Source: a virus. Taken from it: a DNA stretch of 28,903 bases. The stretch lies in IMG/VR virus record IMGVR_UViG_3300022602_000313, positions 1 to 28,903 of that record; one strand, given 5' to 3'. Under the pieces are notes generated by a model. The model was not told where the DNA came from, ran no database searches, and saw nothing but the letters and a program-made list of their open reading frames with translations. Of the stretch, positions 6,495-14,863 are shown piece by piece. Numbering within the stretch: the stretch's first letter is position 1; every line of letters starts with the position of its first letter. The position numbers and the translations under genes are program-made.

Positions 6495-6521
6495 GGCTGC
6501 TACCATCACAACGTAGCAGCC
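6495..6521 (+). terminator. Hairpin after ssb
   Basis: GGCTGCTAC (6495-6503) pairs perfectly with GTAGCAGCC (6513-6521) over a 9-nt loop, 15 nt after the ssb stop, followed by tttaatt. The stem is strong and the U-run is short, so it is a weak or partial intrinsic terminator. The next ATG is only 9 nt downstream. Confidence 0.55.
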
Positions 6522-6530
6522 TTTAATTAA

Positions 6531-6803
6531 ATGAAAATGAGAGGTTCAATAGAAGTCTATTTCGATGGTGAGTTTAAGGGTAGCAGATACTATACAATGC
6601 GAAAAGAACGTAATGAATGGATGGCGCAGCAACTTAAATTATACCCACAGCACAAGCATCATAAAATTTATTTCATAAACAAACCAACAGAATACAATGA
6701 GAAGCAACATTGTCAGCGCAATACATCATCTCCGATTAGCGAAAGAACACTACCAAGACCTTCAACGGGAAATGCCCAACTCTCTTGGAGAAAAATTGGG
6801 TAA
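6531..6803 (+). CDS. Hypothetical protein with long 3' overlap
   Basis: A 90-residue protein starting MKMRGSIEVYFDGEFKGSRY. The first 55 residues look normal for a small alpha/beta protein (EVYFDGEFKG, then a helix with WMAQQLKLYP). The last 35 residues (from about CQRNTSSPISERT) are low in hydrophobic residues and overlap the next gene by 107 nt. This suggests that the original stop was lost and the end is read-through sequence. Function unknown. Confidence 0.5.
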   Translation: MKMRGSIEVYFDGEFKGSRYYTMRKERNEWMAQQLKLYPQHKHHKIYFINKPTEYNEKQHCQRNTSSPISERTLPRPSTGNAQLSWRKIG

Positions 6804-8461: not shown

Positions 8462-9292
8462 ATGCCTATACCTTACATGGGAAGCAAGCGCAAAAGTGCC
8501 AATAAGATTTACAGCACAATACATAAACTTAACCCTAACGGTAAGTTATTAGTTGATTTATTTTGTGGTGGCTTTGCCATAAGTGAAAAATTTATTTGCA
8601 AAGGGTGGAATGTTATAGCAAATGACAAAAATAAATACGTCATTGCTTTATTGCAAAAAGTATTGCTTGAAGGACTTCCCGAAGATGTGGTTACTAAGTT
8701 TGTCAGCCGGGAAATATTCTTTGATATTGCAGCAAATCCAAATAATTGCGAGGATTGGTATGTCGGCTACGTTCAATGTGTTTGGAGTTTTGGAAACAAT
8801 CAAAGGAATTATCTTTTTGGGAGGGCAGTTGAACCTATTAAATATGCAGGACATGAATTGGTAGTTAATTGTAATTCAGATTTAATACGTGGGTTTATTT
8901 CAGAAGAGGCAATAAGTCATATATTATCTAAGCTAGACAGGATTAGTCGCCGATTAGAATTAATGGCTTGTGTTTCAGAAAGAAAGTTTGAGCTACAACA
9001 GCTACAACAGCTACAACAGCTAGAACAGCTAGAACGGCTAGAACAGCTACAACAGCTAGAACAGCTAGAACAGCTACAACAGCTACAACAGCTACAACAG
9101 CTAGAACAGCTAGAACGGCTAGAACTATATAGCCTTAATTACAATGAGGTTACTATTCCAGATAGTGCTATTATTTATTGTGACCCACCTTATATCGGAA
9201 GGGCTCAATATAAAGAGGGTGGTTTTAATCACGATTATTTTTGGGATTGGGTCAGAGAAAAATCAAAAACAAATAAGATTTATGTAAGCTAA
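8462..9292 (+). CDS. dam: D12-class DNA adenine methylase, cut short by in-frame TAA
   Basis: A 276-residue product with the Dam/D12 order of motifs: PYMGSKRK at residues 4-11, motif I DLFCGGF (32-38), an IANDKNKY element for AdoMet, and catalytic DPPY (241-244). Between the two halves of the catalytic domain sit 14 tandem LQQ/LEQ/LER tripeptides (residues 178-219). The frame stops after NKIYVS. In-frame sequence after the TAA continues YNAPNDFVSVLKFEQKSTLQ and 34 more residues to the TAA at 9455-9457, which matches the usual VSSYNAPxDF ending of this family. The visible product thus lacks the last strands of the fold and is probably impaired unless the stop is read through. Confidence 0.8.
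   Translation: MPIPYMGSKRKSANKIYSTIHKLNPNGKLLVDLFCGGFAISEKFICKGWNVIANDKNKYVIALLQKVLLEGLPEDVVTKFVSREIFFDIAANPNNCEDWYVGYVQCVWSFGNNQRNYLFGRAVEPIKYAGHELVVNCNSDLIRGFISEEAISHILSKLDRISRRLELMACVSERKFELQQLQQLQQLEQLERLEQLQQLEQLEQLQQLQQLQQLEQLERLELYSLNYNEVTIPDSAIIYCDPPYIGRAQYKEGGFNHDYFWDWVREKSKTNKIYVS
8993..9124 (+). repeat. 9-nt tandem repeat array inside the Dam-like gene
   Basis: Fourteen copies of a 9-nt unit, CTA(C/G)AAC(A/G)G, plus a partial CTAGAA. In order the units encode LQQ three times, LEQ, LER, LEQ, LQQ, LEQ, LEQ, LQQ three times, LEQ, LER. The unit is a multiple of three, so gain or loss of copies would change protein length without shifting the frame. The nearly identical DNA of the units points to recent expansion by slippage or recombination. 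Confidence 0.95.
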
Positions 9293-9500
9293 TACAATGC
9301 CCCTAATGATTTTGTTTCAGTACTTAAATTTGAGCAAAAAAGCACTTTACAAGGGGGAAATCAAAAGCATAAAAATCAACCAATTGAAAATTTATTCACA
9401 CCAATAGGTCAAGACAATATCGAATTTAAACATTTTAAACAACAATCCCTATTCTAACATGACAGCAAAAGAAAGGTATAATTTTTTGTTAAATGTTTAG

Positions 9501-9508
9501 TATATTTG
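9501..9508 (+). promoter_or_regulatory. -7 box of the structured-RNA transcript
   Basis: TATATTTG is a perfect match to TAnnTTTG and lies directly before a string of three hairpins, with a predicted start near 9513. No TTG is found 17-23 nt upstream; a TTTTTTG at 9482-9488 is 12 nt away. Support therefore rests on the -7 box and on what follows it. A 13-codon frame (ATG at 9459) ends at 9500, directly before the box. Confidence 0.5.
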
Positions 9509-9511
9509 TAG

Positions 9512-9618
9512 CGTAGTGTAGCACCTACGATTAGAAACTAATTAATGGCTTTAAAAGGGATGGTGTACCTGTTTTACAGGGTGCTATTACATCATCCACT
9601 TTAAAGCTTTTTTATTTT
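9512..9618 (+). ncRNA. Structured small RNA or attenuator leader before the helicase gene
   Basis: Three hairpins fill the space between the TATATTTG box and the helicase ATG. H1: CGTAG (9512-9516) with CTACG (9525-9529). H2: ATTAG (9530-9534) with CTAAT (9538-9542), triloop AAA. H3: GCTTTAAA (9548-9555) with TTTAAAGC (9600-9607), then GGATGGTGTA (9558-9567) with TACATCATCC (9588-9597, one G-U), then CCTG (9568-9571) with CAGG (9577-9580). H3 is followed by a U-tract (9608-9618, interrupted by one A), as in an intrinsic terminator. The helicase ATG follows the U-tract with no gap and no A-rich leader. It is either a free RNA of about 105 nt or a leader that controls read-through. I match it to no named RNA family. 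Confidence 0.6.
9548..9618 (+). terminator. Intrinsic terminator directly before the helicase start
   Basis: An outer 8-bp stem, a short internal loop and a 10-bp inner stem end in TTTTTTATTTT. This is the strongest terminator-like structure of the early half, and the next gene starts with the base after the U-tract. Helicase and primase expression must therefore come from read-through, antitermination or an unseen promoter. Confidence 0.65.
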
Positions 9619-11070
9619 ATGTCATCATACGAACTTTACCCGTATCAAAAGAAGTTTAAAGAAAATATACGGTCATCACTTGCCAAAAGTAAAAAGGTAA
9701 TTGCTTGTGCTGCCACAGGAAGCGGTAAGACTAAAACTTTTCTTTCGATGGTTAAAGATGCTTTAGAAAAGAAAACTACTGTTTTAATAGTATCCGAAAC
9801 ATCAAAGATTTATAAACAAATACACGAAGAGCAAAGCGATTGCATAACCATTGGAGACGGTGTAAAGTTTGTAGATATTGAAGTAGGTAAATGCTACGTT
9901 GCAATGGCTCAAACATTGGTACGCAGACCATTTATAATATCACAGTTTCAAAACTTTGGTTCAAAACTTTTAATCATAAATGACGAGTGTCATGTGGGAA
10001 CGTCTACGAAATTATTGCAACAATTAACAGATGCCTATCTTATTGGGTTTACAGCAACACCAGACTACAGAGTAGCAAAACATCTACCGCTTTTATACAA
10101 TGATATTGTAATCGGAGCACAACCACAGGAACTATTAGAAGGTGGATATTTGTCACCTTATTACCACTACGAAAGACAGGCGGCGGATTTAAGCGGATTA
10201 AAAAAAGATAGTAAAGGTGAATTTTCGGAGGCATCTCAATTTGATGCGTTTAATAAGCCAAAAGTATTTGCAGGACTTCACGAAGATTTAGAAAAGTACC
10301 ACAATAAAAAAACAATAGTTTATTGTGCCTCAATAGCGGATTGTGCTGCCTTATCTCAAGAACTTAGAAACGTTGGTTTTGTAGTGTCGGAAGTACATAG
10401 TAAAAATGAACAATCAGATATTGAACTTAACCAATTTACACACGGTCACGTTGATATTTGTGTTTCTGTTTCTGTATTAACAAAAGGTTGGGACTTTAAA
10501 CCAATAGACTTAGTAATACTTAGACGTGCCACTACATCACTAGCTTTGTATTGTCAAATGGTTGGGCGTGGTGCAAGGGTTATGGATGGTAAAGAACGCT
10601 TTACCGTACTAGATTATGGCGGTAACGCATCCCGTCACGGACTATGGAACTTTGAATTTGATTGGGCTAAAATGTGGAATAAACCGCCTAAGAAAAAGAA
10701 AGACGGCGTAGCACCTATAAAAGAATGCCCTAAATGTTTTTTGATACTTGCACCTCGTGTTATGACTTGCCCAGAGTGCGGACATACATTTGAAACAAAA
10801 GAAAAAGAATACGTTGAAGGTAAGCTAGTAGAGGTCACGGAAAGTTATAATAAACTAAGGGGTAAATATATTGCAGACCTTACTCCGATTGAATTAGCCG
10901 ACTATGCTAAGATAACAAATAAGAAACCTTTTGCGATAAGAGTAGCGAAAGCAAAGCAAGATGTCCTATTTTTACAATCTTTTGCTACTGCAATGGGCTA
11001 CCATTCGGGATGGGTTAAGCATCAAGACATAAGTGAACCATTAGAATTTTACAACATTAAAATTAAATAA
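9619..11070 (+). CDS. SF2 DEAD/DEAH-box helicase
   Basis: A 483-residue superfamily 2 helicase. An LYPYQKKFKENIRSSL Q-motif-like start is followed by Walker A ATGSGKT (residues 32-38), Walker B DECH (122-125), motif III-like GFTATP (143-148), KGWDFKPIDLVIL, and motif VI QMVGRGAR (313-320). A zinc-ribbon pair CPKC (370-373) and CPEC (384-387) plus a nearby His lies in the C-terminal part. It would unwind duplex DNA or remodel forks during phage replication. The primase-polymerase gene follows with no gap. The start is unusual: it has no A-rich leader and follows the U-tract of a terminator. Confidence 0.88.
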   Translation: MSSYELYPYQKKFKENIRSSLAKSKKVIACAATGSGKTKTFLSMVKDALEKKTTVLIVSETSKIYKQIHEEQSDCITIGDGVKFVDIEVGKCYVAMAQTLVRRPFIISQFQNFGSKLLIINDECHVGTSTKLLQQLTDAYLIGFTATPDYRVAKHLPLLYNDIVIGAQPQELLEGGYLSPYYHYERQAADLSGLKKDSKGEFSEASQFDAFNKPKVFAGLHEDLEKYHNKKTIVYCASIADCAALSQELRNVGFVVSEVHSKNEQSDIELNQFTHGHVDICVSVSVLTKGWDFKPIDLVILRRATTSLALYCQMVGRGARVMDGKERFTVLDYGGNASRHGLWNFEFDWAKMWNKPPKKKKDGVAPIKECPKCFLILAPRVMTCPECGHTFETKEKEYVEGKLVEVTESYNKLRGKYIADLTPIELADYAKITNKKPFAIRVAKAKQDVLFLQSFATAMGYHSGWVKHQDISEPLEFYNIKIK

Positions 11071-13536
11071 ATGAATACTACCTTTCAACAGTCAATAAAA
11101 GAATGTGAATACTACTTAGATAACGGAATTTCAATTATACCCGTAAGAGATAAACCACAAACATTTAATGGTAAAGAATATCCTGTAAAGTCTGCTTACC
11201 CTTGGAAAAAATGGCAGTCGGAAATAATAAGCAAGGCAGAACTTTTATATCTTATGACAGAAAAATATGATACCGTAGGATATGGTATTGTGTGCGGTAA
11301 AGTTAGTGGTAACTTAGAAGTTGTTGATATTGATGTAAAAAATTGGGCTGGCATTGATGCAATGCTTTTTACTGATTTAAAGTCTTTTTATCCCGAACTA
11401 TTTGAACGACTAAGAATAACACAAACACCGTCTAAAGGTTATCATATATTTTATAGAATTGAGGGAAACCAAACGGAAGGTAACAGGAAATTAGCTTGGA
11501 AAGAAGGAGCGACAGAGGCAGCTATTGAAACCCGTTTTGAAGGTGGCTATGTTGTGGCAGCCACACAAATGAATTATAAAATAGTAAAAGACAATCCTAT
11601 TCCTACTATTACATGGGAAGAACGTTGCAGCATTATTTCTATTTGTATGGGGTACAACCAAAAAGTAAAAATAGCTGCTATTACACCCACTACAACATCA
11701 TCCGACTATTACGACCAAAACCCATTTGACCACTTTAATGGGTCACCTGCTGCCGAAAGTGTGCTAACTGATAACGGTTGGAAAGTAAAAAAAAGTAATA
11801 ATAACTTTATATGGTTTACACGACCAGAGGCAAAAACAAATGGGATAGATGCTTCTTTTAATAGGCTAAAACGTTGCTACTATATTTTTTCTAGTAGCAC
11901 AGAATTTGAACCGTCAAAAGGGTATAACCCAGTTACTGCGCTTTCTATATTGCAGCATAAAGGCGATAAAAAGAAAACATATTCTTGGCTATGTGATAAC
12001 GGTTATGGTATAATAAAAGAAAAAAAGCAAAAGATATTAGCACAAAATGCAGCCCGTAAAGGTTACACACTACCAAAAAATGTGAGCGAAGAAACTAGAC
12101 AACTAGCAATTACTTTACAAGGCGAACTGCAAGAACTGCATCCACACGGCACTTTTTGGGATTATGACGAAGATGGTAAAATGACTATTAACCGTGAGAA
12201 ATTAATGCTAGTATCGAACTATCTAGGATTTAGATATTACAAAGGAAATGTAGTTAGGATATTGTCTTATCTTATTCATAAAATAGAAGAAAGGGAATTT
12301 CAAGATGTATTAAAAGAATACATAAAAGAACCAAATAATGAAGAATGTATATCTATTTGCAATGCTTTAGAGGCTTTCTTAGAATCTCATGGTAAATACA
12401 CAATGAAGCGTTTATCAATATTGGCAGAAGATACAATACTAAAGGATAACGAAAATATATGCTTTAAATTTTTTAAAAATGGTTACTTGGTAATAGACCG
12501 TAATAACATAAATTTTCTTGAATATGATGCCTTAGATATGCTTATTTGGGCTGAAAAATTACAAGATAGAAACTACAATAAAGGCGAAGGGGGTAAGTAT
12601 GTGGATTTTTTAAAGTTAGCAATAGGCGAAGAACACATAGCCCACACTCAACAAATACTTGGTTTTCTTTGTCACGAATACAAAGATGAAACAACAGGCT
12701 ATATTATTGTGCTAACAGAACAATGTCGTGACCCTAGAGATGGGGGTGGTAGTGGAAAAAATGTATTTTGCAGTTTACTAAAACATACAACTTCTTACAC
12801 TTCAAAGCCAGGAGCCCAAACAAAATTTGATGAAAAGTTTTTTCAATCTTGGAACGGGCAACGTATATTTTGCATCAGCGATGTGCCAAAGAATTTCGAC
12901 TTTTCTTTTCTGAAAGAACCATCCACAGGCTCATTTATTTGGAAGAAACTTTTTAAGGATGAAGTGGAAGTATCAAACGAGGAAGCACCTAAATTTATGG
13001 TACAAACTAATTACAGCTATGAAGTGATAGACGGCGGATTAAAACGTAGAATTATCCCTATTGAATTTACCAATTTTTTTACTAATGTTGGAGGCTTAGA
13101 TGTGCATTATGGATGTCATTTTCCGAAAGGTTGGACTAATGAAGATTGGGCAGGTTTTGACAATTTTATAGCGCAATCAATACAAGAATGGTTATTGTGC
13201 AATAAGAAACTATCTGCACCTACATTGACCGAAGGGGGGTGGCTTAAACAGTTTGAGCAAACATACGGTTCAATAATATTTAACTTCATTGAGCAGAATT
13301 TTAATCATTGGTGTGAGCGTGTAGAAATAAGTAACGATACCTTTAAAAGTTATTTAGAAGCCTATTACGGCGAAAATAACACACCTAAGCAATATCAACC
13401 TTCAACACAACGTATTAACTCAGCCATTAAAGCGTATGCAGAGAAAAAAAAGGTTGATTATAAATGTGATTTGCAGAAAAGGGATAACGGAGTAGTGGTA
13501 AAATACCGTTTATTTAGTGTTGAAGTGCCATTTTAA
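11071..13536 (+). CDS. Primase-polymerase fused to SF3/D5-like helicase
   Basis: An 821-residue replication protein. The N-terminal primase-polymerase (AEP) domain starts with CEYYLDNGISIIPV and has the metal-binding pair Asp86 and Asp88 in VVDIDVK, with His125 in the SKGYHIFY motif. A middle region (about 200-480) is followed by a D5/DUF5906-type ATPase with Walker A GGGSGKN (558-564), then IFCISDVPKNFDF and KRRIIPIEF motifs. It would make primers and unwind DNA at the phage origin. The gene starts directly after the helicase stop (TAA-ATG). An iteron-bearing AT-rich region lies directly downstream, which suits an origin recognised by this or another replication protein. Confidence 0.88.
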   Translation: MNTTFQQSIKECEYYLDNGISIIPVRDKPQTFNGKEYPVKSAYPWKKWQSEIISKAELLYLMTEKYDTVGYGIVCGKVSGNLEVVDIDVKNWAGIDAMLFTDLKSFYPELFERLRITQTPSKGYHIFYRIEGNQTEGNRKLAWKEGATEAAIETRFEGGYVVAATQMNYKIVKDNPIPTITWEERCSIISICMGYNQKVKIAAITPTTTSSDYYDQNPFDHFNGSPAAESVLTDNGWKVKKSNNNFIWFTRPEAKTNGIDASFNRLKRCYYIFSSSTEFEPSKGYNPVTALSILQHKGDKKKTYSWLCDNGYGIIKEKKQKILAQNAARKGYTLPKNVSEETRQLAITLQGELQELHPHGTFWDYDEDGKMTINREKLMLVSNYLGFRYYKGNVVRILSYLIHKIEEREFQDVLKEYIKEPNNEECISICNALEAFLESHGKYTMKRLSILAEDTILKDNENICFKFFKNGYLVIDRNNINFLEYDALDMLIWAEKLQDRNYNKGEGGKYVDFLKLAIGEEHIAHTQQILGFLCHEYKDETTGYIIVLTEQCRDPRDGGGSGKNVFCSLLKHTTSYTSKPGAQTKFDEKFFQSWNGQRIFCISDVPKNFDFSFLKEPSTGSFIWKKLFKDEVEVSNEEAPKFMVQTNYSYEVIDGGLKRRIIPIEFTNFFTNVGGLDVHYGCHFPKGWTNEDWAGFDNFIAQSIQEWLLCNKKLSAPTLTEGGWLKQFEQTYGSIIFNFIEQNFNHWCERVEISNDTFKSYLEAYYGENNTPKQYQPSTQRINSAIKAYAEKKKVDYKCDLQKRDNGVVVKYRLFSVEVPF

Positions 13537-14837: not shown

Positions 14838-14863
14838 AGCCCTATTTATTTAGGGCTTTTTTA
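14838..14863 (+). terminator. Intrinsic terminator between terS and terL
   Basis: AGCCCTA (14838-14844) pairs with TAGGGCT (14851-14857) over a 6-nt loop and is followed by TTTTTTATTT, a classic terminator. The terL ATG is at 14867, only a few bases after the U-run, so as at 9618 a terminator stands directly before a gene of the same direction. Confidence 0.75.

Follow-up and report, generated by a model that had tools for sequence, protein, structure and literature searches.

Attenuators built on an intrinsic terminator (trp-type, ribosomal-protein and riboswitch platforms) combine a promoter, a structured leader, a terminator with a U-tract and a controlled gene. In phages, the autoregulatory leader of T4 gene 32 is a pseudoknot placed before a DNA-replication gene, and in HK022 the put antiterminator RNA forms a pair of hairpins immediately behind a phage promoter; put lacks a terminator itself and exerts its effect on distant ones. 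Plasmid kissing-loop control (the IncI/IncB repZ leader pseudoknot, ColE1 RNAI/RNAII) uses loop-loop contacts with a sequence that is variable between relatives. In the Pistol ribozyme the loop of a 5' hairpin pairs, as a pseudoknot, with a strand that adjoins helices further downstream.

The window is the whole stretch of DNA that was analysed, 28,903 nt of a virus contig (IMG/VR virus record IMGVR_UViG_3300022602_000313, positions 1-28,903, one strand). At 9501-9618 it carries a leader having the same order of parts as the intrinsic-terminator attenuators, but without a conserved leader peptide, a conserved aptamer or a clear antiterminator, and with a sequence-variable kissing contact between a 5' hairpin and the terminator. 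As in T4 gene 32, a phage leader pseudoknot precedes a replication gene; the window leader differs by its terminator hairpin and U-tract, and by belonging to a class reused before many unrelated genes. Two hairpins follow the promoter directly as in put, whereas the second one is here itself terminator-like and is kissed by the first. The loop-loop contact varying between relatives is shared with the plasmid systems, but no antisense gene or copy-control context was seen, and both kissing strands lie in one short leader. The likeness to Pistol is one of topology only: the window leader has no conserved catalytic sequence, has its complementary strand on the 3' side and ends in a U-tract, and Pistol-type Rfam models gave no match at the thresholds used.

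At the curated gathering score Rfam 15 gave no match in the window or in 15 relatives, and relaxed thresholds returned only sub-threshold chance matches, which agrees with the preliminary description, where the stretch could not be assigned to a named RNA family. No tRNA or tmRNA was found by ARAGORN. A motif termed 'ssNA-helicase' has been published; our literature search found no such text, and there was no Rfam match. Searches on kissing terminators and Bacteroidota phage leaders likewise found no description, with many subscription papers outside the search, so that an earlier description is possible. The element is probably a built-in on/off leader of a kind not described before, invisible to standard RNA families because its sequence varies while the shape is kept.

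Parts and fold of the leader

The leader is followed on the same (+) strand by a DEAD/ResIII-type helicase gene (9619-11070; Pfam PF04851 and PF00271, PHROG 16) and, immediately downstream, a primase-polymerase gene (11071-13536, + strand; Pfam PF09250, phrog_19930). The order of parts is TATATTTG, 3 bases, hairpin H1, an A-rich linker, a long hairpin, T6, ATTTT and the helicase ATG at 9619.

The box TATATTTG at 9501-9508 (+ strand), already reported in the preliminary description, has the form TAnnTTTG, which is the consensus at -7 for sigma-ABfr, the primary sigma factor of Bacteroidota (PMC7366714). Taken alone the box is unremarkable, as TANNTTTG is found 50 times in the window against 44 expected. 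Its weight lies, as far as sequence comparison goes, in the fixed position 5' of H1 among relatives: in 23 of 26 members a box is found there, mostly at 2-9 nt. With this spacing the transcription start would fall at the base of H1, at a predicted position of about 9512. The window shows no obvious -33 element.

H1 (9512-9529, + strand) is a hairpin of 5 bp, CGTAG-TGTAGCAC-CTACG, with which the RNA is predicted to begin; its loop contains GTAGCAC (9518-9524). The A-rich linker (9530-9546, + strand) contains AACTAA, an instance of a weak family motif AACwwA. This motif was present in 12 of 26 members against 2.0 in shuffles, and is only suggestive since it was picked after looking. The terminator-type hairpin (9547-9608, + strand) has three stems, P2 (9547-9555/9600-9608), P3 (9558-9567/9588-9597) and P4 (9568-9572/9576-9580), and a 7-nt 3' bulge, GTGCTAT (9581-9587, + strand), between P4 and P3. 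The U-tract (T6, 9608-9613, + strand), also noted earlier, ends 5 nt before the helicase ATG, leaving 10 nt between hairpin base and ATG; a U-tract adjacent to the start codon is conserved in relatives. The lower part of the terminator stem is rich in A and U (UUUAAAGC), so that termination could be weak.

The predicted RNA (9512-9616) has a minimum free energy of -32.8 kcal/mol compared to -18.6 in shuffled sequences (z -4.48), and none of 200 shuffles was as good. For 9501-9625, z was -3.7. The minimum free energy structure of 9512-9616 consists of H1, a weak 5-bp hairpin at 9530-9542 and the long compound hairpin at 9547-9608 followed by T6. All three hairpins proposed in the preliminary description are thus present in the fold; the middle one is not kept in relatives, and 9530-9542 is best read as part of the linker. 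The key feature, a pseudoknot between the H1 loop and the 3' bulge of the terminator, had been overlooked.

A frame of 19 codons in the window leader (ATGGCTTTAAAAGGG...TAA) is broken in a relative, L006 (ATGGCTTAA). The stretch is therefore still not explained by a protein frame, as had been stated, and a leader-peptide attenuator was rejected, there being no conserved short ORF.

Covariation and the kissing contact

Relatives from IMG/VR keep the box, H1, the long hairpin and the U-tract, while the gene upstream is swapped between them. The leader DNA is more conserved than the helicase gene (79% versus 69% identity to L006, 97.5% versus 91% to L004), and in the same comparison the 150 nt upstream of the leader diverge to 38-57% identity. 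Relative to the window, L006 carries a compensatory C-G to U-A change in H1 and a compensatory U-A to A-U change at position 6 of P2. The remaining stem changes in L006 are swaps between standard pairs and G-U, and G-U pairs occur in P2 and P3.

The H1 loop strand (9518-9524) is complementary to the bulge strand (9581-9587), with a duplex energy of -7.9 kcal/mol. The two strands change together across distant leaders (5'/3'): GGTAGAATC/GATTCTACC in L016, GTAGAGG/CCTCTAC in L017, GTTGGTAGCC/GGCTACCAAC in L021, GTTCGCC/GGCGAAC in L023, CGTCCAC/GTGGACG in L028, GTAGTGAG/CTCACTAC in L071, GATCTCA/TGAGATC in L046 and GGGCAT/ATGCCC in L048.

A permutation test was carried out on 13 distinct leaders located directly before helicase genes. 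These were chosen by the box, the terminator hairpin and the start codon, and the kissing match was not a criterion; most came from a scripted list, and four (L017, L019, L039, L071) were picked by eye, where some prior knowledge of the match is possible. The 5' part of every leader was paired with every terminator interior. The self-pairing sum was 245 compared to a permuted mean of 178 (sd 10), and 0 of 200,000 permutations reached 245; using duplex energies, 4 of 200,000 reached the observed value. Single self-matches are modest (p about 0.05 for the window by shuffling), and the strength of the signal is that of the set, not of individual leaders. Together with the compensatory changes in L006, this provides the covariation among homologues that the preliminary description had proposed to look for.

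In folds of 11 members computed blind to the pseudoknot, both kissing strands were unpaired or nearly so in most cases, the 3' strand being placed in an apical loop (e.g. L039, L111, L127) or in a bulge (window, L006, L016). One leader, that of BF766P1, has a mismatch in its kissing strand, which speaks slightly against the idea that each kissing pair is strictly necessary.

These data bear on another alternative, in which the hairpin is an ordinary terminator serving the upstream gene and the complementarity arose by chance. Terminator hairpins are indeed present between genes of this phage; here, however, the promoter box separates the upstream stop codon from the hairpin, relatives exchange the upstream gene while keeping box, H1 and hairpin, and neither the permutation result (0 of 200,000) nor the shuffle controls fit chance pairing. 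We consider this explanation highly improbable.

A structure formed in single-stranded DNA or at a replication origin is given equally little weight. It would suit the adjoining helicase and primase genes and the rarity of G-U pairs in the kissing strands (4 of 192), but G-U pairs do occur in P2 and P3, and the conserved box and U-tract imply transcription. Moreover, up to two copies are found per contig, also before methylase, HNH and antirepressor genes, and the origin idea was rejected since these are not replication genes.

Distribution among phages of Bacteroidota

Before helicase homologues of 27-55% identity we found leaders without obvious sequence similarity to each other but with the same order of a TAnnTTTG-like box, H1, linker, hairpin with U-tract, and ATG. 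What is conserved is the architecture and not the sequence, and the architecture is the older of the two. The U-tract directly after the stem is kept in nearly all members; linker length varies widely, from about 6 to 28 nt. In many other helicase loci looked at, the element is absent directly before the helicase gene.

The members are too variable in sequence for the aligner used, and kissing pairs cannot be represented in a covariance model; the search instead relied on a descriptor scan, controlled by shuffling. The loosest descriptor was noisy, and all counts rest on the strict one, which was applied to the window and to 45 pieces of named and IMG/VR phages. Requiring a start codon at most 40 nt from the U-tract, it found 19 elements (near-identical copies counted), compared to 0-0.5 when the sequence was shuffled. 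Control loci totalling 387 kb (both strands), nearly all of them taken from non-Bacteroidota genomes, contained none. Exact-pattern scans returned only near relatives and one unrelated coding match (L055), and the window leader as a sequence query gave only chance matches in named phages.

The preliminary description had linked the stretch to helicase and primase expression, but a role specific to these genes does not hold, as the element is also found before genes for an SNF2/methylase fusion, N4/N6 methylases, a NUMOD4-HNH endonuclease, a CHC2/DnaG-type primase, Pif1-like helicases, antirepressors and small unknown proteins. Its distance to the start codon is usually 4-37 nt, and mostly 9-37 nt before the methylase, NUMOD4-HNH, DnaG-like primase, Pif1 and antirepressor genes; the orientation is nearly always sense, and several contigs carry two copies. 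Among isolates, the descriptor scan located it in Flavobacterium phage 11b (AJ842011, 33634-33718) and, before an antirepressor-type gene, in Bacteroides phage B40-8 (L112; FJ008913, 28403-28490). In three Bacteroides fragilis phages (L112, L154, L155) the leaders are 93-100% alike and the antirepressor gene behind differs in its N-terminal domain. For BF766P1 and BF702P1 the likeness of the leader is 93-94%, and the gene after the BF702P1 leader has a different N-terminal (Bro-N) domain.

A leader subtype with an ATTACC..GGTAAT-type terminator base was seen in L024, L066, L067 and L023 (near 1700-1780 / 2886-2961); the Pif1-like or ResIII helicase genes that follow begin about 18-33 nt further on. 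A riboswitch was also considered and rejected: no aptamer nucleotides are conserved across distant members, in which H1, the kissing strands and the terminator all differ, and only the weak AACwwA is shared.

The main rival is a free small RNA of about 105 nt acting in trans, protected by the 5' hairpin, the kiss and the terminator, with its place next to a gene reflecting compact packing. With its own promoter box, a 5' end placed at H1 and a terminator on the 3' side, the element bears the canonical features of a stable small RNA. Against it, the element nearly always lies in sense orientation shortly before the start codons of many unrelated genes, and the kissing strands differ between phages, so that no shared target sequence is kept. 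We regard a small RNA as unlikely.

Less likely still is an action on the helicase mRNA after read-through, as a stabiliser of the 5' end or as a translational operator bound by a protein of the phage itself, in the manner of the T4 gene 32 leader pseudoknot, for which termination would not be needed. Such a function would suit the location of H1 at the predicted 5' terminus, the 10 nt between hairpin base and ATG, and the fact that several downstream genes encode nucleic-acid-binding proteins. The U-tract right after the stem, however, is a hallmark of termination and is kept in nearly all members, and the downstream proteins differ too much for a single autoregulator to be shared.

Proposed attenuation and read-through

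We conclude that the stretch is probably a promoter-proximal leader acting in cis and attenuating transcription, with the kissing contact as a tertiary or switching element. The preliminary description had offered two readings, a free RNA of about 105 nt and a leader gating helicase/primase expression; that proposal is supported by the covariation, the conserved box and U-tract and the lack of an Rfam family, and of the two the leader is favoured, since the element sits so constantly right in front of the start codons of many different genes. Both the structure and its linkage in cis are supported at the level of sequence, which shows the box, H1, the covarying kissing complementarity, the terminator-type hairpin, a fixed distance to start codons and a modular reuse of the element. 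A promoter box lies upstream on the same strand and a stable hairpin with a U-tract precedes the gene. In a fold-based look at secondary structure, no clear antiterminator fold and no ligand site were seen.

From this arrangement we infer the transcription start, termination and its conditionality; the kissing contact may either help or hinder termination, and any ON/OFF direction, trigger or ligand would likewise be a matter of inference. Transcription would start at the base of H1, which would fold first, after which the terminator hairpin would begin to fold. Its bulge or apical loop would kiss the H1 loop on emerging, shortly before the final arm, a timing that places the contact to tune closure of the terminator. 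The completed hairpin with its U-tract would act as an intrinsic terminator releasing an RNA of about 105 nt, and the kissing contact would set how often, or under what condition, the terminator closes. Helicase and primase would be made only from read-through transcripts, since the gap between U-tract and ATG leaves no room for another promoter and, with the ATG 10 nt past the hairpin base, any helicase transcript must cross hairpin and U-tract. The same short distance means that the structure could also restrain ribosome access.

More tentatively, the element may represent a widespread and undescribed class of control RNA in Bacteroidota phages, a self-kissing leader in which a fast-evolving loop pair, formed by the 5'-terminal hairpin and the intrinsic terminator, sets the termination of early and DNA-metabolism genes; we hold this as a possibility. 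Through its variable loops each leader could then be specific, which might for instance guard against cross-regulation when phages co-infect. Alternatively, all leaders could respond at once to a phage or host factor that recognises their shape and serves as a general antiterminator of early genes. Bacteroidota are a major group in gut and fresh water, and little is known of how their phages time their genes. This RNA element, recognisable in laboratory isolates (Flavobacterium phage 11b, Bacteroides phage B40-8), marks promoters, start points and probable early-gene control. With it, attenuation in these phages can be tested directly, and the search descriptor can be used to annotate leaders that have so far not been placed.

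A terminator adjoining a start codon is not unique to leaders with a kissing contact. At 14838-14857 of the window (to 14866 with the U-tract) a plain terminator hairpin of 7 bp, without promoter box or H1, ends directly before the ATG of the terminase large subunit. The terminase gene must therefore need read-through, which suggests that this phage uses terminator read-through elsewhere too. Another hairpin, GGCTGCTAC...GTAGCAGCC followed by TTTAATTAA (6495-6530), lies directly before an ORF at 6531, again without a promoter box.

Upstream of the leader, the gene for a D12-class adenine methylase (8462-9457) has an in-frame TAA at 9290-9292; it looks recently truncated, since the methylase-like frame runs on past this codon to a stop at 9455-9457. 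Within it, a repeat of 9 bp, AGCTAGAAC, occurs 15 times (8991-9125) and codes for an LQQ/LEQ repeat, a possible site of slippage or length variation.
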